Positions 5,621 to 27,921 of a stretch of 64,000 bases of DNA are shown one piece after another (the stretch's first letter is position 1; every line of letters starts with the position of its first letter). The translations under genes were made by a program, and so were the position numbers. Location of the stretch: NCBI GenBank assembly GCA_029289235.1, contig JARFTZ010000032.1, positions 62,001-126,000 of the forward strand, given 5' to 3'. The notes below the pieces were generated by a model. It had not been told where the DNA came from. It worked only from the letters and a program-made list of their open reading frames with translations, and made no database searches. The DNA is from Gammaproteobacteria bacterium. Lineage in GTDB: Bacteria > Pseudomonadota > Gammaproteobacteria > Burkholderiales > Rhodocyclaceae.

Positions 5621-5773
5621 GGTTTTTGCCTTACAAAGAGAACTCTGGAAAAAGCTGGTAACGTTAAGGCCTAGACCTTTTTTGGTCAAGACTCGCGTCA
5701 TCGACGCCTGCGCTCCGGCGCAAACCTCATCTCGATTTCCCCTGGGACACTGATTCTGGCCAGCCAACGCGAA

Positions 5774-7663: not shown

Positions 7664-7672
7664 CGGCCCGGA

Positions 7673-9822: not shown

Positions 9823-9885
9823 GTTTTGACTGGGAGAAATACTGCAGTGATAATCGGCGTCTTCGATCCCGAGCAGGAGAAGCCG

Positions 9886-11373: not shown

Positions 11374-11798
11374 CACAGGTTTTCTTCTATCACAACGCCG
11401 CCGACCGTATTGCGGCCATTGCGGCGCTGATAGGCAAAGCCTACCGGCAACACAAACCGGTGCTCGTGTATGCCCCGGAAGCCCCCGTTGCCGGCGCGCT
11501 CGACCGCCAGTTGTGGCTGCAACCACCGACCGGGTTCATTCCGCACGTCAGCAGCTCTTCGCCGCTGGCCGACGAAACGCCGGTCATCATCACCGGCGAC
11601 CCGGAATCGGCCCGGCAGCATGAGCGGCTGATCAATCTGTCCGAAGAAGTACCTCCCGGATTCGCCCGATTCACCAGTCTCATCGAGGTCGTCGGGCAAG
11701 AAGCAAACGAGCGTCAGTCGGCGCGCGCACGGGTCAAGTTCTACAAGGACCGCGGCTACGCCATCCAGTATTTCGACCTCGCGGAGAAGCCCGCATGA
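11370..11798 (+). CDS. holC: DNA polymerase III subunit chi
   Basis: This is the chi subunit of the clamp-loader complex, which links the polymerase III holoenzyme to SSB. The 142-residue product (LTQVFFYHNAADRIAAIAALIGKAY...) has the family layout: an N-terminal F.ydLa.d...a...L..ka core, the ITGD/ET.P turn and the C-terminal FKDRGYAIQYF. It begins with TTG overlapping the pepA stop (TTGA), with GGGAA about 8 nt upstream. Non-ATG initiation within a coupled operon is plausible for a low-abundance subunit. The pepA-holC-valS order is common in proteobacteria. Confidence 0.9.
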   Translation: MTQVFFYHNAADRIAAIAALIGKAYRQHKPVLVYAPEAPVAGALDRQLWLQPPTGFIPHVSSSSPLADETPVIITGDPESARQHERLINLSEEVPPGFARFTSLIEVVGQEANERQSARARVKFYKDRGYAIQYFDLAEKPA

Positions 11799-12268
11799 GC
11801 GCTCAGGACGCCCCTTCCGAGAACCCGGTAATCCATGCATTGCAAGGCCGTCGCAGACGGAGCTTCCTGGCGATGAAGCGGGAGGCGCCGCTCGACATCG
11901 ATACCGTGCCGGCAGAAAGCGAAGAAGACGATATCCCCGTCCTCACCGAGGTAATCTCAGCAGACGCCCCGGTCGAAGCGGAAACGGTCGCGCAGGAAGA
12001 ACTTCCCGGCGTCGACCCGATGATCGCCTTGGAGTCACGCATCGAGGAACTGGCTGCCGACATGGCCCGCGCCATCGCCGAGCAGATGGCCTACGAACTG
12101 CCGACCCTGATCGAGGCAACCTTGCTCAATGCCGGAACCGAACTGCGCAACGGCATCACGGCAACGATGGAAACCGCACTGAGGGAGTACATCGCGCAGC
12201 GCAAACAGCTGAACCTCCCGCTCGACGGCGCCGAAGACATCAACACCCCCGCCAACAACTGGCGCTGA
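11795..12268 (+). CDS. Hypothetical acidic protein between holC and valS
   Basis: I do not recognise a characterised family. The 157-residue protein begins with a basic patch ([19 protein letters not shown]). A long acidic, probably disordered segment rich in Glu and Asp follows (about residues 30-75). Next comes an amphipathic helical region ([37 protein letters not shown]) that could form a coiled coil. The C-terminal tail ends in NTPANNWR. There is no signal peptide or membrane segment. The ATG overlaps the holC stop, so it is expressed with holC. Position suggests a helper of holC or simply co-transcription; that is inference. Confidence 0.75.
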
Positions 12269-12320
12269 GCTTGCCGAAAAGCAAGCGGCGCCAATCGCGG
12301 GAGCGGTGAACGCCATCCGG

Positions 12321-12326
12321 TATAAT
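12321..12326 (+). promoter_or_regulatory. Putative -10 element for valS
   Basis: A perfect TATAAT lies 51 bp upstream of the chosen valS ATG, in the gap after the upstream hypothetical gene. No good -35 hexamer is visible at 16-18 bp, so the promoter call rests on the -10 alone. It would give valS its own transcript besides read-through from the pepA operon. Confidence 0.45.
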
Positions 12327-12377
12327 CGCGCGTTTTCTCACAAACACTATCTCCGCCACAGTTGCGCACCCGATCCT

Positions 12378-15197
12378 ATGGAACTCGCCAAGAGCTTTGA
12401 GCCGGCCGACATCGAACGTCGCTGGTACCCCGACTGGGAGGCCAAGGGCTATTTCGCCGCCGGCCTCGACGCGAACAAATCCGACGCCTTCTGCATCCTG
12501 CTGCCGCCGCCGAACGTGACCGGCACGCTGCACATGGGGCACGGCTTCAATCAGGCGATCATGGATGCGCTGACGCGCTACCACCGCATGCGCGGCGACA
12601 ACACGCTGTGGCAACCCGGCACCGACCACGCGGGGATTGCGACGCAAATCGTCGTCGAACGCCAGCTCGATGGACAAGGCATTTCGCGTCACGACCTCGG
12701 CCGCGAGAAGTTCCTCGAAAAAGTCTGGGAGTGGAAGGAATACTCCGGCAACACCATCACCCGCCAGATGCGCCGCCTCGGCACCTCGCCGGACTGGACG
12801 CGCGAGCGCTTCACGATGGACGCGGGCCTGTCCAAGATCGTCACCGAGACCTTCGTGCGCCTGTACAACGAAGGGCTGATCTATCGCGGCAAGCGCCTCG
12901 TCAACTGGGACCCGGTGCTGCACACCGCGGTGTCCGACCTCGAAGTGGTGAGCGAGGAAGAAGACGGCTTCATGTGGCACATCCGTTACCCGCTGGCCGA
13001 TGGCTCTGGCGAACTGACGGTCGCCACCACCCGCCCTGAGACCATGCTCGGCGACACCGCCGTGATGGTGCACCCGGAGGACGAGCGCTACAAGCACCTG
13101 ATCGGCAAGATGGTGAAGCTGCCGCTCACCGACCGCGAGATCCCGATCATCGCCGACGCCTACGTCGACCTCGAGTTCGGCACGGGCTGCGTCAAGGTCA
13201 CGCCGGCGCACGATTTCAACGACTACGCGGTCGGCCAGCGCCACAAGCTGCCGATCATTTCGATCCTGACGCTCAACGCGAAGATCAACGACAACGCCCC
13301 GGAAAAATACCGCGGCATGGACCGTTTCGACGCGCGCAAGGCCGTCGTTGCCGACCTCGAAGCCGCCGGGGTACTGGTCAAGGTCGACAAGCACAAGCTG
13401 AAGGTGCCACGCGGCGACCGTACCGGCGTCGTCATCGAGCCGATGCTCACCGACCAGTGGTTCGTCGCCATGTCCAAGCCCGGCGCAGACGGTACCAGCA
13501 TCGTCGGCAAGGCCCTTGAATGCGTGGCTTCCGGCGAGATCAAGTTCGTCCCGGAGAACTGGGTCAACACCTACAACCAGTGGCTGAACAACATCCAGGA
13601 CTGGTGCATCTCGCGGCAACTCTGGTGGGGCCACCAGATTCCGGCTTGGTACGGCGAAAACGGCGAAGTCTTCGTCGCCCACAACGAGGACGAAGCGCGC
13701 GCCCAGGCCGACAAGATCGGCTATGCCGGCCCGTTGATGCGCGACCCGGACGTCCTCGACACCTGGTACTCCTCCGCGCTGTGGCCGTTCTCGACGCTGG
13801 ACTGGACGCCTGAGTGGCCGGAGAAATCGAACCAGGCACTTGATCTCTACCTGCCGTCGACGGTGCTCGTCACCGGCTTCGACATCATCTTCTTCTGGGT
13901 GGCGCGCATGGTCATGATGACCAAGCACATCACCGGCAAGATCCCGTTCAAGCACGTCTATGTGCATGGCCTGATCCGCGACGCGGAAGGCCAGAAGATG
14001 AGCAAGTCCAAGGGCAACGTGCTCGATCCGATCGACCTGATCGACGGCATCGGCATCGAGGGCCTGGTCAAGAAGCGCACCACCGGCCTGATGAACCCGA
14101 AACAGGCCGAGCAGATCGAGAAGCGCACGCGCAAGGAATTCCCGGAAGGCATCCCCTCCTTCGGCACCGATGCGCTCCGCTTCACCTTCCTCTCGCTGGC
14201 CAGTCCCGGCCGCGACATCAAGTTCGACCTGCACCGCTGCGAGGGCTACCGCAATTTCTGCAACAAGCTGTGGAACGCCACGCGCTTTGTGCTGATGAAC
14301 ACCGAAGGCCACGATTGCGGCATCGATCCGGACGCCGTGCCTGATATGAGCCCGGACGGACTGCGTTTCTCGTTCGCCGACCGCTGGATCGTCAGCCGTC
14401 TGCAGCGCACCGAGGCCGAAATCGAGCAGCATTTCGCTGATTACCGTTTCGATCTGCTGGCCCGCGCCATCTACGAATTCGTCTGGGACGAGTTCTGCGA
14501 CTGGTATCTGGAACTCGCCAAGGTGCAGATCCAGAACGGCACGCCGGAAGAAGCCCGCGCCACCCGCCGCACGCTGGTACGGGTGCTGGAAACCGTGCTG
14601 CGCCTCGCGCATCCGCTGATCCCGTTCATCACCGAGGAACTGTGGCAGGCCGTCGCTCCGCTTGCGCACTGCAAGACGCATGAGTCGATCATGCTCGCCG
14701 CGTATCCGAAGGCCGACCCGCTGAAATTCAACGAAGCCAGCGAAGCCAAGGTGCAGCAACTCAAGGACATCGCCTACGCCTGCCGCAACCTGCGCGGCGA
14801 GATGGGTATTTCGCCGGCGCAGAAGGTGCCGCTGATCGCCAGCGGCGATACCGAGGTCTTGCAGCGCTGCGCCCGCTATCTCAAGGCGCTGGCCAAGCTT
14901 TCCGAGGTGCAGATCGTCGAGCAGATGCCAGAGGACGCCAACGCGCCAATCGCCGTGGTCGGCGAGATTCGCCTGATGCTGAAGATCGAGATCGACGTCG
15001 CTGCCGAGACCGAGCGCCTCGCCAAGGAAATCGCCCGACTCGAAGGCGAGATCGTGAAAGCGACGGCGAAACTCGCCAACGAGAGCTTCGTCGCCCGCGC
15101 GCCAGCGCAAGTCGTCGAACAGGAGAAGAAGCGTCTTGCCGATTTCAGCGCAACAGTCGAGAAGCTCAAGCCGCAACTGGCGCGACTGAAGGGCTGA
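12378..15197 (+). CDS. valS: Valyl-tRNA synthetase
   Basis: This class I aminoacyl-tRNA synthetase charges tRNA-Val and edits misactivated threonine. The 939-residue protein has the HIGH-type motif HMGH (within [14 protein letters not shown]), the inserted CP1 editing domain, and the KMSKS motif at 540-544. The tRNA-binding helical domain follows ([11 protein letters not shown]...). The C-terminal coiled coil ([43 protein letters not shown] region) is characteristic of ValRS. I used the ATG giving [13 protein letters not shown], which matches family N-termini; an upstream in-frame ATG would add 24 poorly conserved residues. A strong terminator follows. Confidence 0.98.
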
Positions 15198-15218
15198 GCG
15201 CCGGAAACCGCTCGCGCC

Positions 15219-15255
15219 AACGCCCCGGACGCTTCCCGGGGCGTTTTTGTTTCTT
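15219..15255 (+). terminator. Intrinsic terminator after valS
   Basis: AACGCCCCGG (15219-15228) and CCGGGGCGTT (15236-15245) form a perfect 10-bp stem around a 7-nt loop, followed by TTTGTTTCTT. It lies 22 bp after the valS stop codon and ends the pepA-holC-orf-valS transcription unit. Confidence 0.9.
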
Positions 15256-15312
15256 CCGACCGGGCCAAGCGTCGACTATCCTGAAAATCGTTCCAATGAC
15301 GCGAGGTTCGCC

Positions 15313-15747
15313 ATGTCCGCCGACCCTTTCGATCTCGCACGTTTTGTCGAGGCCCAAGCCCCGGTCTACGAAAACGCGCTAGCGGAATTACGCGCCGGCA
15401 GAAAGCGATCACACTGGATGTGGTTCATTTTCCCGCAGATTCGCGGCCTGGGCATCAGTCCAACCGCGCAGTACTACGCCCTCAGCGGTTTGGAGGAAGC
15501 GCGCGCCTACCTCGCCCATCCGCTGCTCGGAGCACGACTGCTGGCCTGCACGGCGGCGGTTACTGCGCATCGGGGAAGCGGTGTCAGCGGTATTTTCGGT
15601 TCACCGGACGACCTGAAATTCCGCTCGTCGATGACCCTGTTCGAACTCGCCGCGGACGACCCGTCGGAATTCTCGCGCGCGCTCGATACGCTCTGCGCCG
15701 GCGAGCGCGACGAAATCACCCGTTCCATCGTTCTGGGCCATCGCTGA
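15313..15747 (+). CDS. DUF1810 family protein
   Basis: The 144-residue cytosolic protein shows the DUF1810 pattern: DPFDLARFVEAQAPVYENALAELRAGRKRSHWMWFIFPQIRGLG near the start, then SPTAQYYALSGLEEARAYLAHPLLGARL and a GIFGSPDDLKFRSSMTLFELA segment. The family is all-helical and of unknown biochemical role, though widely conserved in proteobacteria. It stands alone between the valS terminator and the methyltransferase gene 39 bp downstream, with which it may share a transcript. Confidence 0.88.
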   Translation: MSADPFDLARFVEAQAPVYENALAELRAGRKRSHWMWFIFPQIRGLGISPTAQYYALSGLEEARAYLAHPLLGARLLACTAAVTAHRGSGVSGIFGSPDDLKFRSSMTLFELAADDPSEFSRALDTLCAGERDEITRSIVLGHR

Positions 15748-15786
15748 TCTGGTAGATTGCCCGGTTTTCAACGACCGACCAACGTC

Positions 15787-16425
15787 ATGACGGCTTCCGC
15801 ACCCCGCGACGATTTCGACCGGCGCGCCGCCACCTGGGACGACGACCCGATGAAAACCGCGCGTGCACGCGCAGTCGCCGACGCCATCCAGACCCACCTT
15901 CCCGACCTCGCCTCGATGAGGGGCTTCGAATACGGCTGCGGCACCGGCCTGCTCAGTTTCGCGCTGCAGTCGTCGCTGCGCGAGATCGTGCTGGCCGACA
16001 ACTCGGACGGCATGCTCGACGTGCTGCGATGCAAGATCGACAGCGCACAAATCAACAACATGAAGCCGATCCGCCTCGACCTGTCGACCGACCCACTGCC
16101 GGGACAGCAATTCGATCTCGCCTGCTCGCTGATGACCCTGCACCACATCCCGGACACCGACGACATTCTGCGGAAGCTGCACGCGCTGCTGGCCGACTTT
16201 GGTCACTTGTGCATCGCCGACCTCGACCGCGAGGACGGCTCGTTTCACGGGGAGGGGTTCGACGGGCACAACGGCTTTGACCGGGCGGATCTTGCACGCC
16301 GGGCGGAACACGCCGGATTCACCAACGTCGCCTTCTCGACCGTATTCACCATCAACAAGGGGCTGCCGGAGAAGAGCTACCCGGTGTTTCTGATGTACGC
16401 GCAAAAACGCGCAGGAAAACCCTGA
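15787..16425 (+). CDS. Class I SAM-dependent methyltransferase
   Basis: The 212-residue protein has the SAM-binding motif I (GFEYGCGTGLLSFAL), the acidic motif II residue in IVLADNSDGMLDVL, and a motif resembling FDLACSLMTLHHIPD before the C-terminal sheet. The order fits a Rossmann-fold class I methyltransferase of the small-molecule type (UbiE/Methyltransf_11-like). The substrate cannot be read from sequence. I preferred the ATG at 15787 (MTASAPRDDFDRRAATWDDDP); an upstream start at 15757 would add ten residues. The gene converges on the chloride antiporter gene with 3 bp between stop codons. Confidence 0.85.
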   Translation: MTASAPRDDFDRRAATWDDDPMKTARARAVADAIQTHLPDLASMRGFEYGCGTGLLSFALQSSLREIVLADNSDGMLDVLRCKIDSAQINNMKPIRLDLSTDPLPGQQFDLACSLMTLHHIPDTDDILRKLHALLADFGHLCIADLDREDGSFHGEGFDGHNGFDRADLARRAEHAGFTNVAFSTVFTINKGLPEKSYPVFLMYAQKRAGKP

Positions 16426-16428
16426 CAT

Positions 16429-17787
16429 CTACGGCGCCGTATCTCCGTCGCGCCGCGCGCCGTTCCCCTCTTCGCCCGTCCCGCTTTTCGCCGCCAGGCC
16501 GAGACGCTGCATCTGAATATCCGCCAGCGCGCTGTAAAGCGGCGGGCTGAACAGGCGCGAGACCAGCGAGGCGAGCATGGCTACGGCCATCAGGCTGATA
16601 ACCATCTCGTGGCCATCGATCATTTCCATCACGATGATGAACGACGTCAGCGGCGCCTGTGTCACCGCCGCCAGGAATCCGGCCATGCACAGGGCGTAGA
16701 TCGACAGCGCACCGACCGATCCGAGCAGGAAATGCACATCCGCGCCGATCCCGACGCCGACGGCAAGGCTCGGCGCGAAGATGCCTCCGGGAATCCCGCT
16801 TAGGAAGGAAAACACCGTGGCGGCGAACTTCACCGGCGCGTAATACCACGGCAGGTTCATCGCGCCCTCAAGCGTGCTTTGGGTGTAAAGGTAGCCCGAC
16901 CCATGCGCCGCGCCGTTGCTGACCGCCCCCAGCAACGCCACCATCAGCCCACAAAAACCGGCCCAGTAATACGGATGCTGCTGGCGAAAAAGGCTCACCC
17001 TGCCCTTGCCCGGCTTCGCCGCGCGGACGAGAATGCGGCTGAACACCCCGCCTGCGATTCCACAGGCCAAGGCACAGACGAAGACCGGCCAGAGAATGTG
17101 GTAATCGATGCTGTCGACTGCCAGTCGCCCGAAGTAGATGTAGTTGCCCTGGATCGAGATCGAAATCAGGCCGGCCAGGACGATCGCCGAGATCAACACC
17201 CCGTTGGTTTTTTCCTCGAAACGCTTGCCGAGTTCCTCGATCGCGAAAACGATTCCGGCCAGCGGCGTGTTGAACGCCGCGGCGATTCCCGCGGCGCCGC
17301 CAGCCAGGATGAGATGCTTGGCGAAGCGCGGCGAGCGCTTGGGGAGAAAACGCCGGAAGGCGTACATCATGCTCGCCCCGACCTGCACCGACGGCCCCTC
17401 CCGTCCAATCGAAAAACCGGAAGCCAGCCCGAGCACGCCGAGAAGAACCTTCCCAAAGGCGATCCTGACTGACACGAAAAAGCTGATCTTCTCGCCTTCC
17501 GCCTCGTCCCTGAGCGCCGCGATGACCTGCGGGATGCCGCTGCCCTCTGCACCGCGAAACAGGGTGCGGGTCATCCAGGCAATCCCCATCCCGGCCAGAG
17601 GGCAGAGGAACAGCGTCATCCACCAGAACCGACGGACTCCTTGATTGAAATAGTCAATTGCGTGTTCGGTAAGACGGGAAAAAGCAACGACGACCAATCC
17701 GGTGACCACAGCCGCCAGCCAGATGACCGCCCGTTCTCTCCAGGCCTTGCGATCGGCGAGGCGGTGACGGGATAAAACAGTGAGCAT
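16429..17787 (-). CDS. ClC-type chloride/proton antiporter
   Basis: The 452-residue protein carries all three ClC selectivity motifs: GSGIP near the N-terminus, GREGPS with the gating glutamate, and GGIFAPSLAVG. The chloride-coordinating tyrosine appears in PPLYSALADI. The internal proton-gate glutamate is present in FAIEELGKRFEE, so exchange (2 Cl-/1 H+) rather than channel activity is expected. About ten hydrophobic helices follow a basic N-terminus. No CBS domains are attached. I chose the ATG at 17787 (MLTVLSRHRLADRK); the open frame extends 30 codons upstream without conserved sequence. Confidence 0.93.
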   Translation of the reverse strand: MLTVLSRHRLADRKAWRERAVIWLAAVVTGLVVVAFSRLTEHAIDYFNQGVRRFWWMTLFLCPLAGMGIAWMTRTLFRGAEGSGIPQVIAALRDEAEGEKISFFVSVRIAFGKVLLGVLGLASGFSIGREGPSVQVGASMMYAFRRFLPKRSPRFAKHLILAGGAAGIAAAFNTPLAGIVFAIEELGKRFEEKTNGVLISAIVLAGLISISIQGNYIYFGRLAVDSIDYHILWPVFVCALACGIAGGVFSRILVRAAKPGKGRVSLFRQQHPYYWAGFCGLMVALLGAVSNGAAHGSGYLYTQSTLEGAMNLPWYYAPVKFAATVFSFLSGIPGGIFAPSLAVGVGIGADVHFLLGSVGALSIYALCMAGFLAAVTQAPLTSFIIVMEMIDGHEMVISLMAVAMLASLVSRLFSPPLYSALADIQMQRLGLAAKSGTGEEGNGARRDGDTAP

Positions 17788-17893
17788 TTCGGAACAACCA
17801 GTGTTCAGGGGGAACGGCGAATTATACGCCCGAGATTCTGCGCCCAATGGGCGAGGACGAGTTCGAGCAGGAAGCACAAAAGAACGGTTGACC

Positions 17894-17933
17894 GACCGAA
17901 TATTATCGATAATAGTATCGATAATATTCGGTC
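17894..17933. promoter_or_regulatory. 40-bp perfect palindrome, probable operator of the sugar locus
   Basis: Two perfect 18-bp arms (GACCGAATATTATCGATA and its reverse complement) flank a 4-bp spacer at 17912-17915. Inside lie two overlapping ATCGAT-centred dyads, one of them the perfect 14-mer TATTATCGATAATA, 12 bp apart. This fits tandem operators for a dimeric GntR/FCD regulator, and such a regulator is encoded at 20199. A TTGACC that could serve as -35 abuts the left arm. The site lies 61 bp upstream of the transketolase gene and 107 bp upstream of the divergent clc gene. Confidence 0.75.
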
Positions 17934-17993
17934 ATTGCAGCGCAGCTTTTCGTTCCGGTTCATCACATATCGAACAACACGGAGAGGTCTGGC

Positions 17994-18794
17994 ATGAAAG
18001 ATGAAGAATTGCAGCAACTGTGCCGGGAAATCCGCGCCGACATCGTCAGGATGATCGGCCGGGTAAAGTCCGGCCATCCCGGCGGATCGCTTTCCTGCGC
18101 CGAAATACTGGCGACGCTCTATTTCCGCGAAATGAGCGCGAATCCGGCCACTCCGCCCGGGCAGCGAGACAAATGCGTCCTGTGCAAGGGGCACGCCGCC
18201 CCCGCGCTTTACGCCGTTCTGGCCCGCCGCGGCTATTTCCCGCGCGAGGAACTGGAAACGCTGCGCCGGCTGGGATCCCGCCTGCAGGGCCACCCCGACA
18301 TGAAGAAGACCCCCGGCGTCGACGCCTCGACCGGCTCGCTCGGACAAGGATGCTCGATCGCGGTCGGCATGGCGCTCGGCGCACGCCTCAAGGGCTCCGC
18401 GCAACGAATCTTCGCCGTGGTCGGTGACGGCGAGATGCAGGAAGGACAGTTCTGGGAAGCAATGATGTCGGCAGCGCACTTCGGGCTGACCAACCTCACC
18501 GTCATCCTCGACCACAACGGCCTGCAGATCGACGGTGCCAACGACGACGTGATGAACCTGGGCGACATCAGGGCCAAGCTGCTGGCCTTCGGCTTCGACG
18601 TCATCGAGGTCGACGGTCACGACACCATTCAATTGCTCGATGCCTACGCCAGGAAAACGGACAAGCCGAAGTTCATTCTGGCGGAAACCGTCAAGGGCAA
18701 AGGCGTCTCCTTCATGGAGAACCAGGCGGGCTGGCACGGCAAGGCGCCCAGCGCGGACGAGACCGAGCAGGCACTGGCGGAACTGGAGGCCTGA
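17994..18794 (+). CDS. Transketolase, N-terminal (ThDP-binding) subunit
   Basis: The 266-residue protein is the first half of a split transketolase. It has the substrate-side motif GHPGGSLSCAEILATLYF, CKGHAAPALYAVLA, STGSLGQGCSIAVGMALG and the ThDP/Mg motif GDGEMQEGQ followed by DHN about 30 residues later. Transketolases move two-carbon ketol units between sugar phosphates; split forms are common in anaerobes and in catabolic operons. A GGAGAGG ribosome-binding site precedes the ATG. It lies one base before the C-terminal half and heads the sugar operon, directly below the palindrome. Confidence 0.93.
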   Translation: MKDEELQQLCREIRADIVRMIGRVKSGHPGGSLSCAEILATLYFREMSANPATPPGQRDKCVLCKGHAAPALYAVLARRGYFPREELETLRRLGSRLQGHPDMKKTPGVDASTGSLGQGCSIAVGMALGARLKGSAQRIFAVVGDGEMQEGQFWEAMMSAAHFGLTNLTVILDHNGLQIDGANDDVMNLGDIRAKLLAFGFDVIEVDGHDTIQLLDAYARKTDKPKFILAETVKGKGVSFMENQAGWHGKAPSADETEQALAELEA

Positions 18795-18795
18795 G

Positions 18796-19752
18796 ATGAG
18801 CGCACTCAAAATCAGGGGAACGAAAGCAATCCGGGTCGCCTACGGCGAGGCACTGGCCGAACTCGGCGGCGAACGCCCCGACCTTGTCGTGCTCGATGCC
18901 GACCTGGCGCACGCGACCACCACCTGCGTCTTTGGCGAAAAATATCCGCAGCGCTTTTTCAATCTCGGCATTGCCGAGCAGAACATGATGGGCGTCGCCG
19001 CCGGACTGGCCATCAGCGGCCTGACGCCGGTCGCCAGCACCTTTTCCATCTTCGGTGCCGGGCGCGCCTTCGAGCAGGTACGCAACAGCATCTGTTACCC
19101 GCATCTCAACGTCACGCTGGCGCTCACGCACAACGGCCTGACCGTCGGCGAGGATGGCGGCAGCCACCAGAGCATCGAGGATATTTCTCTGATGCGCAGC
19201 ATTCCCGGGATGACCGTGCTCGTTCCCTGCGACGCCATCGAGATGCGCAAGGCGCTGCGCGCAGCCATCGACCACCCCGGGCCGGTTTACATCCGCGTCA
19301 CCCGCCCGCCGGCGCCCTACTTCACCGAGGACGACGCGCCCTTCACCATCGGCAAGGCCAACACCCTGCGCGAAGGGAGCGACATCACCCTCATCGCCAC
19401 CGGGTTGATGGTGTGTCAGGCGTTGCTCGCCGCGGAGCAGCTGGAGAAGGACGGGATCAGCGCTGCGGTGATCAACATGCACACGATCAAGCCGATCGAC
19501 GGCGAAGCGATCATCGCTGCGGCGAAAAAGACCGGCCACCTGATCACCGTGGAGGACCATTCCATCATCGGCGGACTCGGCTCCGCGGTGGCGGAGGTTC
19601 TCGCCGAAAGTTGCCCGGCACGTCTGCGCCGCATCGGCCTTCAGGACTGCTTCGGCCAATCCGGGACGCCCGATGCACTGCTCGAACACTACGGCCTGAC
19701 CGCCCCGCACATCGCCGAAAACGCACGCAAATTCCTGGGAGAGAAAGCATGA
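18796..19752 (+). CDS. Transketolase, C-terminal (pyrimidine-binding) subunit
   Basis: This is the second half of the split transketolase, 318 residues. It has the catalytic glutamate region (NLGIAEQNMMGVAAGLA), the pyrimidine-binding fold with AGRAFEQVRNSICYPHLNVTLALTHNGLTVGEDGGSHQ, and the C-terminal transketolase domain (VEDHSIIGGLGSAVAEVL). GGAGG stands 7 nt before the ATG. Together with the upstream gene it should make an alpha2beta2 enzyme. Its substrates here may be sugar phosphates from the imported carbohydrate rather than the housekeeping pentose phosphates; I infer this from the neighbouring ABC genes. Confidence 0.93.
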   Translation: MSALKIRGTKAIRVAYGEALAELGGERPDLVVLDADLAHATTTCVFGEKYPQRFFNLGIAEQNMMGVAAGLAISGLTPVASTFSIFGAGRAFEQVRNSICYPHLNVTLALTHNGLTVGEDGGSHQSIEDISLMRSIPGMTVLVPCDAIEMRKALRAAIDHPGPVYIRVTRPPAPYFTEDDAPFTIGKANTLREGSDITLIATGLMVCQALLAAEQLEKDGISAAVINMHTIKPIDGEAIIAAAKKTGHLITVEDHSIIGGLGSAVAEVLAESCPARLRRIGLQDCFGQSGTPDALLEHYGLTAPHIAENARKFLGEKA

Positions 19753-20156
19753 ACACAAACAAGGTGAGTGTCGCCGGCTTCGAGGGGGAAGGATTGAAAC
19801 GTGTCGTCGAAAGCGGCGACTGGTTCGTCGGCATCAAGAACTGGAAGCCGGCCAACGACGCAGCCCATTTCGACAACATGGAACGCCACATGCAGACCGA
19901 TGAGGTCTTCGTCCTGCTCGAAGGCGGCTGCACGCTCCTCGTCGACCACTCGCCCGACAACAACTGCTCGGACATCCGCTGCGTCCCGATGGAAAAAAAC
20001 AAGGTATATTGCATCCACCCATCGGTCTGGCATAACACCATTACCACCAAGGACGCCAAACTGATCCTTATGGAAAACAGGAACACCTCCATGGACAACA
20101 GCGAGGTCCGGACACTGTCATCGGGAGAGATCACCGCTCTGCGCAAGCAACTCTGA
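19749..20156 (+). CDS. Cupin-like protein of the sugar operon
   Basis: The 135-residue protein looks like a single-domain cupin. It has a central HMQTDEVFVLLEGGCTLLVD segment and a second motif near KVYCIHPSVWHNTITTKDAKLILMENR, with His residues that could hold a metal. The first motif departs from the standard G(X)5HXH(X)3,4E(X)6G form, reading DEVFVLLEGG after HM. It could be a sugar isomerase/epimerase, a lyase or a sensor; the sequence does not decide. Its ATG overlaps the transketolase stop, so it is tightly coupled to that enzyme and is likely part of the same pathway. Confidence 0.75.
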   Translation: MNTNKVSVAGFEGEGLKRVVESGDWFVGIKNWKPANDAAHFDNMERHMQTDEVFVLLEGGCTLLVDHSPDNNCSDIRCVPMEKNKVYCIHPSVWHNTITTKDAKLILMENRNTSMDNSEVRTLSSGEITALRKQL

Positions 20157-20198
20157 GCCGGGCCGGCGGAAAAAAAAAGAGAACGGGACGGAAAAGGG

Positions 20199-21815
20199 AT
20201 GTCCACACGCAAGGAAACCTCGAGCAAGGTCGACGAGCTATACAAGCGGCTGAAAAAGCAGATCGTCATGTCCGAACTGCAACCCGGCCAGCAACTGGTG
20301 GAGCTTGAACTCGCCGGCACCCTCGGCTGCAGCCAGAGCACCGTGCGCGAAGCCTTGCTGCGCCTTCAGGAAGACGGACTGATTCAGCGCCAGGGCTATC
20401 GCGGCACCACCGTAGCGCCGATCAGCCCGGTCGAGTCCGAGATCTTTCTCGAACTGCGCCGGATGCTTGAAATGCGCGCCGCACGGCTCTCGCTGGAGCA
20501 CCTGACGGACGCCAAGCTCGCCATCCTGCGCGGCATTGTCGACGCCATGGAACAGGCCGCACAGGCGGACGACGGATACGCGCTGTTCGAGAAAGACCTC
20601 GAATTCCACATGCAGCTGTTCGAGATCGCCAACCTGCCGGCGCTGACACCGGTACTGATGCGCTGCTCGGTCGTCAATCACCGCAACAAGATCGCCCAGT
20701 CGGGGAACCGCCGCGCCCTGCTCGAAACCGCGCAGCGGCATCGCAACATCATCGCGGCACTGCAGGCCGGCGACGCGGACATTGCGGCGGAAATCGTCGG
20801 CCACCACGTCTCGAGCATCTTCGGCACCAAAGACAACGGCCCCGCTGCCGACCTCGCGCCGGAAAACCGGATGTCCGGGCCGATGCGCGACCTGTTCGTT
20901 CGCATGTCGATCGACGAGGCGAAATTCCCGGACGTCACCACCCTGCCGGCAGAGGAAGGCCGAAAGATCTTCGAGATACGTCATGCGCGCTGGAACCGGA
21001 TCGACACCTCCCGCTACGATATCGAGCACTTCGAGATTCCGCGGAATCCGTTTTCCCGGCACCCGTCGCAGCCCATTCCTGCCGTGCGCATCCAGACGGC
21101 AAAAACGGAAGCGAGGGGAAGGCTGCTATATCTGCACGGTGGCGGCTGGACATTCGGCAGTATTGCGTCGTTCATGGGCATCATGGCGCGCCTTGCCGAG
21201 CGCACCGGCTTCGCCGTCTACGGCATCGAGTACGCCCTGGCGCCGGAACGCCCGTTTCCCTACGGCCTCAACGATTGCACCTGGGCCTGGCGCTGGCTGC
21301 GCGGACAGGACACTTCCGGACTCCACTGGCTTGTTGCGGGCGACTCCTCAGGGGCAAACCTCGCCCTGGCGATGATGCTCGACCTGCGCAGCCTCGACGA
21401 ATTACTCCCGGACGGCGCAGCCTTGATTTACGGCGCATACAGCGACGCAAGGGAGACCGAATCGCAACGCCTTTTCGGTCAGGGAGCCTTTGGGCTGACG
21501 ACAGCCCGGATGACCTGGTTTCGCAACAACTACCAGGCGGGAGGGATTCCCGATTTCGCACGGCAACGCATGTTTCCGGTCGAAGCGGACCTGCACAACC
21601 TCCCCCCGCTGCTCATCGTCGCCGCGGAACTGGACCCGTTGCGCGACGACAGCATCCTGCTGGCGCGAAAGCTTGCGCAGACCAACACCCCATTCGAGTT
21701 CAGACAAGTCCCGGGCGTGATCCACAACTTCCTGCACTGGAGCGAAGCGCTCCCGGAAGCCGTCGCTACCCTGGACGCCATCGCTGCTTTCATGCAGGCG
21801 CGCAACAGCAAATAG
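20199..21815 (+). CDS. GntR/FCD transcriptional regulator fused to alpha/beta hydrolase
   Basis: This single 538-codon frame joins two complete modules. Residues about 10-75 form a GntR winged helix (VDELYKRLKKQIVMSELQPGQ, then the helix GCSQSTVREALLRLQEDGLI). Residues about 80-210 are an FCD ligand/metal domain with the expected Asp133, His137, His181 and His202/203. After a linker, residues about 225-538 form a hormone-sensitive-lipase-type hydrolase. It has oxyanion motif HGGGW (313-317), nucleophile motif GDSSG (Ser383), Asp479 in ELDPLRDD and His509 in GVIHNF, a full catalytic triad. It sits between enzyme and transporter genes of the sugar locus and probably controls the palindrome upstream. 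The hydrolase may process or sense an esterified ligand; that is inference. Confidence 0.88.
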   Translation: MSTRKETSSKVDELYKRLKKQIVMSELQPGQQLVELELAGTLGCSQSTVREALLRLQEDGLIQRQGYRGTTVAPISPVESEIFLELRRMLEMRAARLSLEHLTDAKLAILRGIVDAMEQAAQADDGYALFEKDLEFHMQLFEIANLPALTPVLMRCSVVNHRNKIAQSGNRRALLETAQRHRNIIAALQAGDADIAAEIVGHHVSSIFGTKDNGPAADLAPENRMSGPMRDLFVRMSIDEAKFPDVTTLPAEEGRKIFEIRHARWNRIDTSRYDIEHFEIPRNPFSRHPSQPIPAVRIQTAKTEARGRLLYLHGGGWTFGSIASFMGIMARLAERTGFAVYGIEYALAPERPFPYGLNDCTWAWRWLRGQDTSGLHWLVAGDSSGANLALAMMLDLRSLDELLPDGAALIYGAYSDARETESQRLFGQGAFGLTTARMTWFRNNYQAGGIPDFARQRMFPVEADLHNLPPLLIVAAELDPLRDDSILLARKLAQTNTPFEFRQVPGVIHNFLHWSEALPEAVATLDAIAAFMQARNSK

Positions 21816-21896
21816 TCATTGTTTCAACCCAAAGCAACCAAGGAGCAGGAAAACAGCATGCGGTAAATCTCAAACCAACCAGAATGGGGGTCCAAC

Positions 21897-23123
21897 ATGT
21901 TCAAGAAATCCACACTCGGCATCGTCCTCGCCACCGCGCTTTCAGGATTCGCCGCCAGCCACGCCTGGGCGCAATCCACCGTAAACTTCTGGTACCACTT
22001 CGACAATCCGGAAAGCATCAAGCTGATGGACGAACTGGTCGCCAGCTTCGAGGGCAAGAACCCGGGCATCAAGGTCAAGGCGGAGAACATCCCCTGGAAC
22101 AACTACTACGACAAGCTGTTCACCTCGATCGTCGGCGGCAAGGCCCCTGACGTGGCGATGGTCAAGCTGGCGCAGCAGCCGCAGCTGATCGAAATGGACG
22201 CCCTCGAACCGATCGACAAGCGGGTCGCATCATGGCCCGGAAAGGACGATCTCGGCGACAACCTGCTGAACATCAACAAGGGCCCGGACGGCAAGCAATA
22301 TTATCTGCCGCTGCAGTATGTCGTAGTTTATCTGTACTACCGCGCCGACCTCTTCGCCAATGCCGGGCTGCAACCACCGGCCACCTGCGAGGATTTCCTC
22401 GATGCGGCGAAGAAGCTCACGCTTCCGGCCAGCGCCAATAACGGCGTCGAACTCTTCGGTTTCGGGATGCGCGGCGGCAAGGGCGGCTACGACAACTGGG
22501 GACCGTTCGTGCTCTCGCAATCCGAGCTGACCCCGGGCGGAATGACCACGCCGAAAGCGATTGCCGCCAACAACTGGTACGTCGACCTGTTCCGCAAGGA
22601 AAAAGTCGCGCCACCTTCGGCCCCGAACGACGGTTTCAATGAAATCATCAGCACCTTCAAGTCGGGACGCACGGCGATGATCTTCCATCACATCGGCTCC
22701 TCGAAGACGATGGTTGCCGCGCTCGGCGACAAGGTCTCGGCCGTGCCGGCGCCGTCCTGCAACGGTGGCCGCTGGACCTCATTCGGCGACGAATCGACGG
22801 CGCTGTTCAAGGCTTCGAAGAACAAGGATGCCGCCTGGAAATGGATGTCCTTCCTCAGCGAAGGCGAGAACAACGTGAAGTTCAACAAGGCCACCGGACA
22901 GATGACCGTGACCCGCAGCGGATCGGAAAAAGCGGCCTTCGAACCGCGCTTCGTCAAGGCCACCGTCGACTCACTGCCGTTCGCCAAGACGCTGCCCGCC
23001 GTGCCGCAGACCGCCGATTTCGTGAATACGGTGTGGCCGGTCAACATGCAGCGCGCACTCACCGGCGAAATCACGCCCGAGCAGATGATGACGACGATCG
23101 AGAAGCACTACACAACCAAGTAA
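21897..23123 (+). CDS. Carbohydrate ABC transporter, periplasmic binding protein (family 1)
   Basis: The 408-residue protein has a signal peptide (KKSTLGIVLATALSGFAASHAWA, cleavage after AWA). The body is typical of family 1 solute-binding proteins of the UgpB/MalE class: VNFWYHFDNPESIKLMDELVASFEGKNPGIKVKAENIPWNNYYDKLFTSIVGGKAPDVAMV. It would deliver a sugar or sugar ester to the two permeases encoded next. The substrate cannot be read from sequence; UgpB-like proteins bind glycerol-phosphate esters, others oligosaccharides. A GGGGG ribosome-binding site precedes the ATG. A REP-like repeat follows the stop codon. Confidence 0.92.
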   Translation: MFKKSTLGIVLATALSGFAASHAWAQSTVNFWYHFDNPESIKLMDELVASFEGKNPGIKVKAENIPWNNYYDKLFTSIVGGKAPDVAMVKLAQQPQLIEMDALEPIDKRVASWPGKDDLGDNLLNINKGPDGKQYYLPLQYVVVYLYYRADLFANAGLQPPATCEDFLDAAKKLTLPASANNGVELFGFGMRGGKGGYDNWGPFVLSQSELTPGGMTTPKAIAANNWYVDLFRKEKVAPPSAPNDGFNEIISTFKSGRTAMIFHHIGSSKTMVAALGDKVSAVPAPSCNGGRWTSFGDESTALFKASKNKDAAWKWMSFLSEGENNVKFNKATGQMTVTRSGSEKAAFEPRFVKATVDSLPFAKTLPAVPQTADFVNTVWPVNMQRALTGEITPEQMMTTIEKHYTTK

Positions 23124-23138
23124 ACAACCGCTGAGCTC

Positions 23139-23213
23139 CGTCACCCCGGCGCAGGCCGGGGTCCAGTTCGTTCTCCGAAAACCTGGATTCCGGCCTGCGC
23201 CGGAATGACGGAT
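23139..23213. repeat. REP/BIME-like repeat pair inside the ABC operon
   Basis: Two inverted REP units, CGTCACCCCGGCGCAGGCCG... and its counterpart ...CCGGCCTGCGCCGGAATGACGG, stand head to head about 17 bp apart. Each is itself a hairpin. Related copies occur at 30282-30352 and 61351-61422. Here the element separates the binding-protein gene from the permease genes, the same position as the known REP of the E. coli malE-malF gap. Confidence 0.8.
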
Positions 23214-23249
23214 TCATCTGCCCGGATTGAAACCGACAGAAGGGAGACC

Positions 23250-24131
23250 ATGAGCCACCGTTCCAGCCTCCGCCGCATGCCCTACTGGCTCCTGTCTCCC
23301 GCCGTGCTGGCCACGCTGATCGTCGTCTTCTACCCGATGCTGCAGGCGGGCATCACCAGCCTCTATTACGAAATCCTGTGGAAACCGAAAGCCACCCGCT
23401 TCATCGGTCTCGACAACTTCATCGCCATCGCCCGCGACCCGGTTTTCTGGGCCTCGCTCGGGCGTACCGCGCTGTGGATCGGTATCACCGTTCCTCTGCA
23501 ACTGGCGCTCGGCTTTGTCACCGCGCTGCTGCTCAACCAGCAATTCCGCTGGCGGACGCTGGCGCGCAGTCTGATCCTGATCCCCTGGGCACTGCCGAGC
23601 GTGGTCATCGGCCTGATGTGGTCGTGGATCTACCACCCGCAGGTCGGCCTGCTCAACGACTTGCTGCTGCGCGTGGGGATGCTCAACAGCGCCATTCCCT
23701 GGCTGGCCGACCCGGCCACGGCGCTGTACTCGATCATCGCCGCGCTGGTCTGGCAGGGCTTTCCTTTCTTCGCGATCATGATCCTGGCCGGACTACAGAC
23801 CATCCCGGCCAACCTCTACGAGGCCGCGGCAATCGACGGAGCAACGACGTGGCAACAGTTCGTCGAAATCACCCTGCCGGGACTCAAGAGCGTGCTGGTC
23901 ACGGCGGTGATGCTGCGGATCATCTGGGTCGCCAATTCAATGGACGTCATCTACGTGATGACCGGCGGCGGCCCCGGCTACGCCACGCACACGCTGCCGC
24001 TCTACGCCTTCAAGCGCACCTACAGCAGCATGGACTTCGGCTACGGCTCGGCGCTGGCGGTCACCTTCGCGCTGCTCCTGCTCGGTTTCATCGTGCTCTA
24101 CCTGCGCCGCATGGGGAGGGAAATGGAATGA
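23250..24131 (+). CDS. Carbohydrate ABC transporter permease (UgpA/MalF type)
   Basis: The 293-residue protein has six membrane segments and the binding-protein-dependent permease EAA loop (LYEAAAIDGATTWQQFVEITLPGLKSVL), which contacts the ATPase. The short N-terminus without the extra MalF helices fits the UgpA/LacF type. The chosen ATG has AGGGAG just upstream; an in-frame start at 23205 lies in the repeat tail and is less likely. The stop codon overlaps the next permease start by 4 bp. Confidence 0.93.
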   Translation: MSHRSSLRRMPYWLLSPAVLATLIVVFYPMLQAGITSLYYEILWKPKATRFIGLDNFIAIARDPVFWASLGRTALWIGITVPLQLALGFVTALLLNQQFRWRTLARSLILIPWALPSVVIGLMWSWIYHPQVGLLNDLLLRVGMLNSAIPWLADPATALYSIIAALVWQGFPFFAIMILAGLQTIPANLYEAAAIDGATTWQQFVEITLPGLKSVLVTAVMLRIIWVANSMDVIYVMTGGGPGYATHTLPLYAFKRTYSSMDFGYGSALAVTFALLLLGFIVLYLRRMGREME

Positions 24132-24967
24132 GAACCGCGAAGACCTCCTTCAGCCGCCGCCTGTTGCTGCTGCATCTGCCGATGGCCTTGATCGTCCTCT
24201 TCGCCATCGGCCCCTACCTGTGGATGCTGATCACCTCGCTAAAACAGGAGTCGACGCTCTTCTCGGCCCATCGCAGCCTGCTGCCCGAGGTCGTGACCAT
24301 CGAGAACTATGTCCGCCTGTTCGCCAAAACCGACTTCCTCAAGAACCTCGGCCACAGCTTCATCGTCGCCAGTGGCGCCGTCGTCCTCGGCCTCTCCGTC
24401 AGCATCACCGCGGCCTACTCGTTCTCGCGCTACCGTTTCGCCGGGCGTCACCTGCTGATGCTGACCTTCCTGCTGATCAACATGTTTCCCGTGGTGCTCC
24501 TGATCATCCCGCTGTTCATCATCATGCGCCACCTGCAACTGCTCGACACGCACCTCGGGCTGATCCTGGCCCATTCGACCTTCGCCATCCCGTTCGCCAC
24601 CTGGATGATGATCAGCTACTTCAACGCCGTGCCGCGCAGCCTCGACGAAGCCGCGCAGGTCGACGGTTGCCGCCCCTTCGGCGCCATGCTGCGCGTGGTG
24701 CTGCCAGTCACGCTGCCGGGCATCATCGCCACCGGCATCTACATCTTCATCACCTCGTGGAACGAATACCTCTACGCCTCGGTATTGGCCGGGCAGGACG
24801 TACGCGTGCTCACCGTCGCCATCCAGACGCTGATCGGGGAATATGAAATTGCCTGGGGACTGCTCACCGGCGGCGGGGTCGTCGGCGCGCTGCCGGTCAC
24901 CGTGCTGTTCATGTTCATCCAGCGACGCCTGATCGCCGGGATGACTCAAGGCGCGGTCAAAGGATAA
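24128..24967 (+). CDS. Carbohydrate ABC transporter permease (UgpE/MalG type)
   Basis: The 279-residue protein is the second transmembrane subunit. It has six helices and the EAA loop PRSLDEAAQVDGCRPFGAMLRVVLPVTLPGI, followed by TSWNEYLYASVLAG, a segment typical of MalG-type subunits. It ends with QRRLIAGMTQGAVKG, the conserved C-terminus of the UgpE/MalG class. The ATG overlaps the stop of the first permease gene, as is usual for these heterodimer partners, which assures equal synthesis. Confidence 0.93.
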   Translation: MRTAKTSFSRRLLLLHLPMALIVLFAIGPYLWMLITSLKQESTLFSAHRSLLPEVVTIENYVRLFAKTDFLKNLGHSFIVASGAVVLGLSVSITAAYSFSRYRFAGRHLLMLTFLLINMFPVVLLIIPLFIIMRHLQLLDTHLGLILAHSTFAIPFATWMMISYFNAVPRSLDEAAQVDGCRPFGAMLRVVLPVTLPGIIATGIYIFITSWNEYLYASVLAGQDVRVLTVAIQTLIGEYEIAWGLLTGGGVVGALPVTVLFMFIQRRLIAGMTQGAVKG

Positions 24968-24997
24968 AAGGGATAAACAAGAACGAAAGGTTGGTCA

Positions 24998-26104
<1,107 letters not shown>

Positions 26105-26167
26105 CACTCGCACGTTCCGCCCGTCATTTTCGACCCACGGCAGGACGACCGGGAAGCCTCGCCCGCG

Positions 26168-26173
26168 TATAAT
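26168..26173 (+). promoter_or_regulatory. Putative -10 element for the AbrB-family gene
   Basis: A perfect TATAAT in an otherwise GC-rich 147-bp gap, 78 bp upstream of the ATG at 26252. No convincing -35 hexamer stands 16-18 bp before it. It is the best promoter candidate for the gene, which is otherwise separate from the sugar operon. Confidence 0.4.
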
Positions 26174-26251
26174 TCCGCTCGCTCTTCCCTGTTACTCGCC
26201 CTGCCCTGCCGCAAAAGGCCGGCCGCAGGCGTTCTTTTCCCGAACACCGAC

Positions 26252-27346
26252 ATGCACGCTCAAGGCAGCCGTTTCCCGTCCCTGAACGGACGACCGCGTT
26301 TCGTCCACTGGGGGCTCCTGCTCGCCCTGACAATCCTGTTCGCCGCACTCTTCGATGCCGCCAGGCTACCCGCCGCGCTCCTCCTCGGCGCCATGCTTGG
26401 GGCGATCCTGATTGCCATCGCCGACGGCACGCCACGAATTCCGCGCCGCGCTTTCGTCATCGCACAGGGCGTGATCGGTTGCCTGGTCGCCCGCAGCATC
26501 ACGCCGGAGATTCTCGTCTCCCTGCGTCACGACTGGCTGCTCTTTCTCTCGGTGACCATCACGGTCATCCTCGTGTGCGCCGGGATGGGCTGGATTCTGG
26601 CGCGTAAGCAACTCCTGCCGGGAACGACGGCCATCTGGGCCTGCTCGCCGGGAGGCGCCGCCGTCATGACACTGATGTCCGACGCCTACGGCGGCGACAT
26701 GCGCCTCGTCGCGGTCATGCAGTATCTTCGCGTAGCCATGGTGACCGTGCTGGCGACCGTCGTCGCGCATTTCTGGATGGGCGGCACGCAGGACTGCCAG
26801 AGCATCTTCGCCGACTGGCTGCAGCCGGTTGCCTGGCACGACCTGGGGGGCACGCTGCTGCTCGCCACAGCGGGCGCATTCGTTGCACAGCGCCTCAAAA
26901 TCCCCGGCGGCGCCATTCTGGCCCCGCTGCTCATCGGCGCCACGCTGCAGGCCAACGGCATCATGAGCATCGTCCTGCCGCCGTGGATACTTGCGCCGAC
27001 CTACATCGCGCTGGGCTGGGCCATCGGCCTGCGCTTCTCACGGCAGACAATCGGCCAGGCGGCGCGGGCGCTCCCGTCGATGATCGTTTCGATTGTTTTC
27101 CTGATCGCCGCCTGCGCCGGCATCGCCGTAATCGTCGCCCACCTGACCCATCTTGATCCGCTGACGGCCTATCTCGCGACAAGTCCCGGCGGACTCGACT
27201 CGGTCGCCGTCATCGCGGCTTCATCGAGCGTCAATGTTCCGTTCGTGATGGCCTTTCAGACAGCGCGTTTTCTGATGGTGGTACTGACCGGTCCGGCGCT
27301 GGCGAAATACATGGCCCGCCGCTTGCAGGAAAGCGAGAAAGCCTGA
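26252..27346 (+). CDS. AbrB family membrane protein (putative transporter)
   Basis: The 364-residue polytopic membrane protein shows the internal duplication of the AbrB family: GALLGAILIA... with PRIPRRAFVIAQGVIGCLVARSITPEIL in the first half and IPGGAILAPLLIGATLQANG...LGWAIGLRFSRQTI in the second. Each half has the ACSPGGAAVMTLMSDAYGGD or LATSPGGLDSVAVIA motif. The family is often misnamed ammonia monooxygenase; it is a predicted transporter of unknown substrate, and E. coli AbrB has a loose link to aidB expression. It is a single gene, followed by a hairpin. Confidence 0.85.
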   Translation: MHAQGSRFPSLNGRPRFVHWGLLLALTILFAALFDAARLPAALLLGAMLGAILIAIADGTPRIPRRAFVIAQGVIGCLVARSITPEILVSLRHDWLLFLSVTITVILVCAGMGWILARKQLLPGTTAIWACSPGGAAVMTLMSDAYGGDMRLVAVMQYLRVAMVTVLATVVAHFWMGGTQDCQSIFADWLQPVAWHDLGGTLLLATAGAFVAQRLKIPGGAILAPLLIGATLQANGIMSIVLPPWILAPTYIALGWAIGLRFSRQTIGQAARALPSMIVSIVFLIAACAGIAVIVAHLTHLDPLTAYLATSPGGLDSVAVIAASSSVNVPFVMAFQTARFLMVVLTGPALAKYMARRLQESEKA

Positions 27347-27349
27347 AGC

Positions 27350-27369
27350 CCCCCGGCATTCGCCGGGGG
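27350..27369. terminator. Hairpin between convergent abrB-like and thiF genes
   Basis: CCCCCGGC pairs with GCCGGGGG around ATTC, a perfect 8-bp stem starting 3 bp after the upstream stop codon. Neither strand shows a U-run, so it is a terminator only in the weak sense; it may protect both 3' ends. Intergenic space to the thiF stop is 12 bp. Confidence 0.5.
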
Positions 27370-27381
27370 TGTCAGCAAGCC

Positions 27382-27921
27382 TCAGAACGCCCCCATTTCC
27401 TTGAGGATGAAGGCGCTCATGTGGTTCGCCACGGTGACGACCTTGTGCGAGAAAAGCGGCCAGTCGGCGCAGTCGCTGACGAAATCGCCAACGATGTGCG
27501 CACGCCCGAACCGCCGCCAGTGGATACCGTCGAGCGAGCCGCCCGCGACGCCGGACGCGGAGACGACGAGCTGATCGCCGGCCAGGCCTTCCATCAGCAT
27601 CTTCTTCGCCGCTGCCTTGTCGAACGCTTCGACGACAAGCTCGCAATCGCCGAACAGCGACTTGCAGTTGGACTCATCGACGCGCACGACGATTGCCTCG
27701 ACCTCGATTTCCGGTCGGATGCGCTGCAGGTTCTCACGCAGCGCCTCGACCTTGGGGCGGCCGATCTGGTCCTGAAAAAAAAACTGCCTGTTGAGGTTCG
27801 ACGGCTCGACGCAGTCAAAATCGACGATACGCAACGCCTTGACGCCACTGCGCACGAGATTCAGGGCAACGTTGGAACCGATGCCGCCCGCGCCGGCAAT
27901 TCCAATTTTCATCGCCTTCAC
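27382..27921 (-). CDS. thiF: Sulfur carrier protein ThiS adenylyltransferase ThiF (short form)
   Basis: This E1-like enzyme adenylates the C-terminus of ThiS for sulfur transfer in thiazole synthesis. It has the nucleotide-binding GAGGIGSNVALNLVRSG, the DFDCVEPSNLNRQFFF motif with catalytic Arg, and a second motif DLIVVEAFDK-like (ELVVEAFDKAAAK). At 179 residues it is the short ThiF of anaerobe-type operons and lacks the zinc-cysteine tail of MoeB/ThiF. I chose GTG at 27921 because GGAGG lies 7 nt upstream and GTGA overlaps the thiH stop. The TTG at 27936 has no such site. Confidence 0.9.
   Translation of the reverse strand: MKAMKIGIAGAGGIGSNVALNLVRSGVKALRIVDFDCVEPSNLNRQFFFQDQIGRPKVEALRENLQRIRPEIEVEAIVVRVDESNCKSLFGDCELVVEAFDKAAAKKMLMEGLAGDQLVVSASGVAGGSLDGIHWRRFGRAHIVGDFVSDCADWPLFSHKVVTVANHMSAFILKEMGAF

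Follow-up and report, generated by a model that had tools for sequence, protein, structure and literature searches.

A GntR/FCD regulator and an HSL-type alpha/beta hydrolase were found joined in one uninterrupted reading frame, opened by an ATG, in the window (the whole 64,000-nucleotide stretch of DNA analysed here). When the recurrence of the GntR-FCD-hydrolase order was tabulated, as the original prediction had proposed, nine intact one-frame fusions were obtained in nine genomes (the window and eight further), and both proteins were found as neighbouring genes at 29 loci, followed by the same ABC sugar importer wherever the sequence was read that far. The fused protein is probably a local repressor of its sugar/polyol operon that would be released by a metabolite and metal at the FCD domain, with a presumably competent hydrolase whose target would be either the imported compound or the inducer.

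Architecture of the fused protein

The prediction of a regulator and a complete hydrolase in one frame, with every residue that had been named, was confirmed by the open reading frame, the Pfam scores (Table 1) and the residue positions. The hydrolase motifs are in place (HGGGW at residues 313-317, Ser383 within GDSSG, Asp479 and His509), and the FCD ligand positions D133, H137, H181, H202 and H203 are all present; positions of this kind bind metal in the family, where either H202 or H203 may serve. From the residues and the codon constraint described below, we infer that the hydrolase is catalytically competent.

By sequence search, the nearest solved relatives of the C-terminal half were esterases/lipases (8oim, E 1.1e-34) and those of the N-terminal half were GntR-type regulators (7xp0, E 1.5e-18). 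The best 50 Foldseek matches to the hydrolase were mostly named esterases/lipases sharing its fold, Aes structures included. The NCBIfam HSL models LipP1 (167.2 bits against 350), PRK10162 acetyl esterase (148.1 against 389) and GESAG (140.6 against 430) scored below their cut-offs. The predicted structure was modest (mean pLDDT 65.4 and pTM 0.50, from a 5-row alignment), and viral scans for deepening the alignment yielded 2 and 0 loci. A methionine lies at the fusion junction in 5/5 betaproteobacterial fusions checked, with no 4-base Shine-Dalgarno match ahead of it, although this is a weak test, as 2/6 operon genes also have no such match, and a separate hydrolase may be made from an internal start.

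With the FadR/FCD subfamily of GntR regulators (e.g., NanR, LldR, and McbR) the protein shares the winged helix, the FCD domain with Asp/His ligand positions, and adjacent transport and catabolic genes; it differs by its C-terminal hydrolase. The earlier remark that no enzyme is attached to GntR regulators proved too strong, as members of the MocR subfamily couple a GntR DNA-binding domain with a sensory domain that is aminotransferase-like (PMC5320631). In MocR proteins and in the fused protein alike, a single chain combines DNA binding of the GntR type with an enzyme-type domain. The enzyme-like domain of MocR serves as the sensor, whereas the fused protein keeps its FCD domain and adds an HSL hydrolase with an intact triad. 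An aminotransferase-like domain was not found after the winged helix (Pfam, E ≤ 0.001), and the NCBIfam MocR models match the N-terminal part only. No description of a GntR-FCD-hydrolase protein was found in the open-access literature searched, which is a weak sign of absence. To that extent the earlier remark that no described family with this layout is known still holds, with the correction that the layout itself recurs.

Table 1 Features of the fused gene, its operon and the candidate operator in the window (positions are those of the window)
Feature	Position	Strand	Evidence or remark
Promoter-like match TTGACC-17-AATAGT	17888..17916	+	Overlapped by candidate operator
Perfect inverted repeat, candidate operator	17894..17933	.	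18-bp arms, 4-bp spacer; 22-bp core 17903-17924
Transketolase N-terminal chain, split-chain type	17994..18794	+	Pfam/NCBIfam; structure-sequence match
Transketolase C-terminal chain	18796..19752	+	Pfam/NCBIfam
Small cupin, weak GPI/WbuC-like matches	19749..20156	+	4-bp overlap with preceding gene
Fused GntR-FCD-HSL hydrolase gene	20199..21815	+	538 aa
GntR winged helix-turn-helix, residues 12-72	20232..20414	+	PF00392, 57.1 bits (gathering 27), E 1.4e-15
FCD effector domain, residues 84-205	20448..20813	+	PF07729, 75.5 bits (gathering 24.3), E 6.3e-21
Linker, residues 206-225, fast evolving	20814..20873	+	Codon comparison
HSL-type alpha/beta hydrolase half, residues 226-538	20874..21812	+	Abhydrolase_3 (PF07859) at 309-512, 158.7 bits (gathering 25), E 2.2e-46
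ABC sugar substrate-binding protein	21897..23123	+
ABC permease 1	23205..24131	+
ABC permease 2	24128..24967	+
UgpC-type ABC ATPase	24998..26104	+	NF008653 above cut-off; searched frame started one codon earlier

Operon context

Two transketolase chains and a cupin precede the fused gene at all four host-genus loci. At the Polaromonas jejuensis fusion and the two fusions of family f49, the operon instead holds TIM-barrel isomerase and Gfo/Idh/MocA genes, with UgpC after them. Since the catabolic genes vary while the regulator, the hydrolase and the importer stay together, these three form a unit with differing catabolic genes. Solved relatives of the binding protein bind diverse sugars, going by their names. 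No literature on such an operon was found in the open-access papers searched.

Several further features were recorded as observations in their own right. Within 17994-20156, the split-chain transketolase has 6yak as its best solved relative, and the only solved match of the cupin is the uncharacterised 3d0j. A one-chain transketolase was seen near the fused gene at locus L137. In Propionivibrio soli (locus L051, 4103-5425), a eukaryotic-type carbonic anhydrase domain lies behind a surface-adhesin E domain.

Candidate operator

The inverted repeat is flanked on one side by the first gene of the operon and on the other by a chloride-channel gene (PF00654) that runs divergently. The overlapping promoter-like match is weak evidence, because one match was found in 17700-27500 where 1.5 were expected in shuffles, which is no more than chance. 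The shared motif surfaced in a palindrome scan of 19 upstream or intergenic stretches, none of which held a match to the FadR-subfamily consensus TKGT-N3-ACMA (spacers 0-5). The candidate operator is TTATCGATA-N4-TATCGATAA-like, in contrast to the TKGT-N3-ACMA of the FadR/FCD subfamily. The missing consensus does not bar membership in that subfamily, because operators departing from it are on record for NanR and BioR (PMC4494728).

At 0 mismatches, the 22-mer core was found once each in 4/28 host-genus genomes, exactly those with the fusion, and in 0/24 without it. Four genomes drawn at random would be exactly these with a chance of 1 in 20,475, with the reservation that the genomes share ancestry. 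The reversed 22-mer, used as a control, was found in 0/28, and the 22-mer itself was absent from 100 shuffles of the window with up to 3 mismatches allowed.

Elsewhere, sites were sought in 280 bases around and upstream of the regulator start. The best match at the two-gene loci had ≤ 3 mismatches in 18/28 (each equalled in 0/300 mononucleotide shuffles) and 4-6 mismatches in the other 10 (0-6 of 300 shuffles as good). Loci L064 and L102, taken separately from this site table, have 1 and 2 mismatches. The two fusions in the order of genome G895 have 4 and 3 mismatches, the five regulator-only genomes 4-5, and the f49 fusions 4 and 5 (in the fetched stretch). The best match in Polaromonas jejuensis has 6 mismatches, and 45/300 shuffles were equally good.

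A lone GntR/FCD sister at locus L107 (genome G688, 8964-13325) is closely preceded by a site with 2 mismatches and has no hydrolase match. Downstream of it are a gamma-glutamyltranspeptidase, an acetamidase/formamidase-family protein and a Gfo/Idh protein. A site that stands before a regulator with no hydrolase and with other genes downstream suggests that it is the regulator, and not the sugar genes, to which the site is tied. From sequence we infer, with good confidence, that the inverted repeat is the DNA target of the fused protein.

Recurrence of the fusion

The host genus belongs to the Betaproteobacteria, Rhodocyclaceae (NCBI), and the full-length fusion was found in 4/28 of its genomes, window included. 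In wider samples it was found in 1/199 genomes of the family, 1/399 of the order and 1/398 of the phylum, each time as the window's own gene. Profile searches gave two fusions in the order of G895 (297 genomes), which is probably alphaproteobacterial judging from its nearest named relatives, and two in family f49 (that of G311; 299 genomes). The fusion was not found in 200 genomes of family f31 (profile search run without a positive control).

A pattern scan was made across contigs of 84,980 species with patterns that pick up close relatives only. It returned seven loci, comprising three Propionivibrio/Accumulibacter fusions (61-77% identical to the window protein, and the same three as the other host-genus loci), Polaromonas jejuensis (Comamonadaceae, 48% identical), Polaromonas sp. 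P2-4 (46% identical, spread over several frames) and two Clostridium regulators. In Polaromonas sp. P2-4 (L053, 8950-15699), not only the fused gene but also those for the binding protein and Gfo/Idh are spread over several frames, through sequencing errors or decay. Propionivibrio soli SG131 and Polaromonas jejuensis NBRC 106434 are named strains among the intact fusions. Several HSL hydrolase matches from the phylum sample were also noted in stop-free frames of 633-916 codons in genomes G477, G387, G560, and G897, which may be hidden fusions or merely open frames.

The original prediction had allowed that homologues might always be two genes, the joined form being an assembly error; the eight further one-frame fusions contradict this. 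The fusion is taken as real because it recurs intact and because the two-gene loci have both proteins in the same order and operon.

Two-gene, regulator-only and hydrolase-only forms

Where the two-gene loci were read far enough, the order was regulator, hydrolase, binding protein, two permeases, TIM-barrel isomerase and Gfo/Idh/MocA, with UgpC mostly divergent. Compared with the window's proteins, the binding protein was 55-64% identical and permease 1 60-65%, against 37-45% for the regulator half and 31-37% for the hydrolase half.

A search of plasmids matched 1215 records, in 22 of which a single place covers ≥ 80% of the query. Thirteen of these 22 loci were examined, all from Alphaproteobacteria by their taxonomy line, and the one-frame fusion was present in 0/13. 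Both genes were annotated at 9/13, overlapping by 4 bp in eight and by 1 bp in one. At three plasmid loci the regulator and hydrolase halves are in different frames, and at L102 the regulator half is in two frames, with stops between regulator and hydrolase. These alphaproteobacterial pairs resemble the window in gene order, in the importer where it was read, in the conserved residues (13/13 rows) and, in many, in a similar site; they differ in being two genes, with the 4-bp overlap in 8/9 annotated cases, rather than one chain. No description of such pairs, which are annotated on plasmids, was found in the open-access literature searched.

At the strong-match threshold, 30/297 genomes in the order of G895 had a match; read by eye, these were 2 fused, 17 with adjacent genes, 1 with the genes on different contigs, 5 with the hydrolase only and 5 with the regulator only. 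In the last five, no hydrolase match was found within about 1.5 kb either side of the regulator. The one read more widely (L138) keeps the importer and catabolic genes though its regulator stands without a hydrolase; this regulator-only operon (G1164, 6506-17531) is adjoined by a one-chain transketolase and an aldose 1-epimerase. A stand-alone hydrolase with the same Pfam domain occurs in another context at L148 (G1333, 5214-6200), where frames resembling acyl-CoA dehydrogenase and CoA transferase (by eye) are its neighbours. The regulators lacking a hydrolase in five relatives and the stand-alone sister hydrolases indicate that the hydrolase is dispensable and that the partnership is frequent but not obligatory.

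Phylogeny and fusion history

Loci L053 and L102, where several frames hold the gene or its regulator half, were kept out of the trees and of the residue tables. A hydrolase tree used 22/56 background hydrolases, and one regulator tree used 3/14 background regulators; two background rows, L008 and L047, were removed by a filter on length, stops or hits.

The seven betaproteobacterial-side fusions, two of them from family f49, formed one clade with support of 100/100. The two fusions from the order of G895 were placed among split forms in the best trees (support 89/85 and 93/84), though a single group of all fusions gave p-AU values of 0.192 and 0.191 and is hence allowed by the test. These two fusions have a longer linker than the other group, and by reading it appears to continue the C-terminal residues of the split regulators. 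Linker length together with tree position favours a second, separate fusion in the order of G895.

Among the regulator halves, grouping the 43 rows that are fused, split or regulator-only to the exclusion of 14 background rows was not rejected (p-AU 0.44), but the best regulator trees do not show this clade, and background row L073 joins the set. The L148 hydrolase was sister to the betaproteobacterial fused hydrolases, and hydrolase sisters without an adjacent regulator occur on both sides (L148, and L065/L066). Strict co-descent of the paired hydrolases was rejected with p-AU 4.6e-18 when L148 and L065/L066 were kept out and 6.7e-5 when L148 alone was kept out. A further co-descent value of 9.4e-31 is partly trivial, with two split-type hydrolases that have no regulator match in the fetched stretch nesting inside. 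Given the L148 sister and the value of 6.7e-5, the regulator-hydrolase pairing is, as judged from these trees, not exclusive.

Conservation and codon constraint

All 12 metal and catalytic positions were unchanged in 9/9 intact fusions and 13/13 two-gene rows examined; a further 16 two-gene rows lay outside the residue table. The window gene was compared codon by codon with four fused relatives, giving dN/dS figures that are rough because dS was near or above 1. They were about 0.12-0.48 for GntR-FCD, about 0.12-0.32 for the hydrolase core, 0.10-0.74 for the hydrolase N-terminal cap, which is under weaker constraint than the main domains, and 0.22-1.24 for the linker (206-225), which shows little constraint in 3/4 comparisons. 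Neither main domain looks decayed.

Proposed function and alternatives

The fused protein would regulate its own operon, comprising the transketolase chains, the cupin, itself and the sugar ABC importer. As a dimer, as family relationships suggest, it would bind the inverted repeat ahead of the operon's first gene and presumably repress transcription, until a small metabolite, together with metal on the FCD ligands, releases it, as in the family at large. The tethered hydrolase would process either the imported compound or the inducer, a role favoured because the hydrolase goes with the regulator and the importer and not with the catabolic genes; its substrate would most likely be an ester or lactone of a sugar/polyol, which is a guess. 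Fusion would fix a one-to-one ratio and place the enzyme beside the sensor, where the alphaproteobacterial relatives mostly use touching genes in the same operon. Against this reading stand the five genomes in which the regulator lacks an adjacent hydrolase, one of which (L138) keeps the rest of the operon, as well as the stand-alone L148 hydrolase, the poorer site matches in Polaromonas jejuensis and the f49 fusions, the chance-level promoter match and the departure of the site from the FadR-subfamily consensus. Of the idea that a regulator carries its own esterase, what stood was that the fusion is real and recurrent, its triad constrained, and its setting a sugar/polyol ABC operon; the regulator's occurrence without a hydrolase match in those five genomes speaks against a strict coupling. 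More speculatively, and rather unlikely, the protein may be a self-resetting repressor in which an ester or lactone induces through the FCD domain and is destroyed by the protein's own hydrolase, setting the length or threshold of the response, with the fusion having arisen at least twice from an overlapping pair.

The strongest competitor, to which we give slightly less than an even chance and which is compatible with the preferred repressor model, is that a run-of-the-mill pair of FCD repressor and pathway esterase was joined without regulatory meaning when a stop codon was lost between overlapping genes. The 4-bp overlaps at 8/9 annotated two-gene junctions make fusing easy, the linker is poorly conserved, split and fused versions have the operon in common, and the fused form is rare (1/199 in the family, 1/399 in the order, 2/297 in an order of another class, 2/299 in f49, and 0/200 in f31). 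Yet the betaproteobacterial fusion has been kept through deep divergence (47% identity between the window and Polaromonas) with both main domains conserved, and the linker lengths differ between the two fusion groups, a difference that, taken together with the tree, agrees with more than one fusion event.

It is unlikely, though conceivable, that the hydrolase is a regulatory partner and not a pathway enzyme, holding the regulator in one state as Aes does MalT until a ligand at the hydrolase changes that state, the fusion making the partnership permanent. Aes, the acetyl esterase of Escherichia coli, is related to it in structure (Foldseek rank 11) and in sequence (NF007547 E 2.7e-43, below cut-off), and the hydrolase is retained alongside the regulator where the catabolic genes differ. 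According to PMC10427625, Aes inhibits MalT by direct interaction; a related esterase partnered with a sugar-system regulator, it is the closest working analogue. Aes and MalT, however, are separate proteins, the regulator belongs to another family and an activator is inhibited, whereas here there is one chain. The triad, needless for a pure binding role, is kept in 22/22 rows checked, and the regulator is found without an adjacent hydrolase.

An assignment of the inverted repeat to another regulator, for example a BioR-type protein, appears very improbable. BioR controls biotin genes. The half-site TTATCGATAA fits the BioR box TTATMKATAA (PMC4494728), but here the half-sites build a longer inverted repeat ahead of sugar genes, the repeat and the fused gene co-occur exactly in the genus (4/4 with, 0/24 without), and a site with 2 mismatches precedes the lone sister GntR gene. 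A sequencing or assembly artefact joining two genes has a negligible probability and was rejected on the recurrence of intact fusions, eight beyond the window including P. soli SG131 and P. jejuensis NBRC 106434, even though the draft host genome is in 63 contigs and the gene of Polaromonas sp. P2-4 lies in several frames.

Biological significance

Both families brought together in this protein were known before, and their genes often lie side by side in an operon. If the coupling is true, a ligand-sensing repressor equipped with an enzyme that acts on that ligand would be an unusual way of controlling genes. The operon comes in fused, two-gene and regulator-only versions that share a type of DNA site, so that swapping them would test what the tethered enzyme does to gene control, and the system offers a route to the ligand of the importer.
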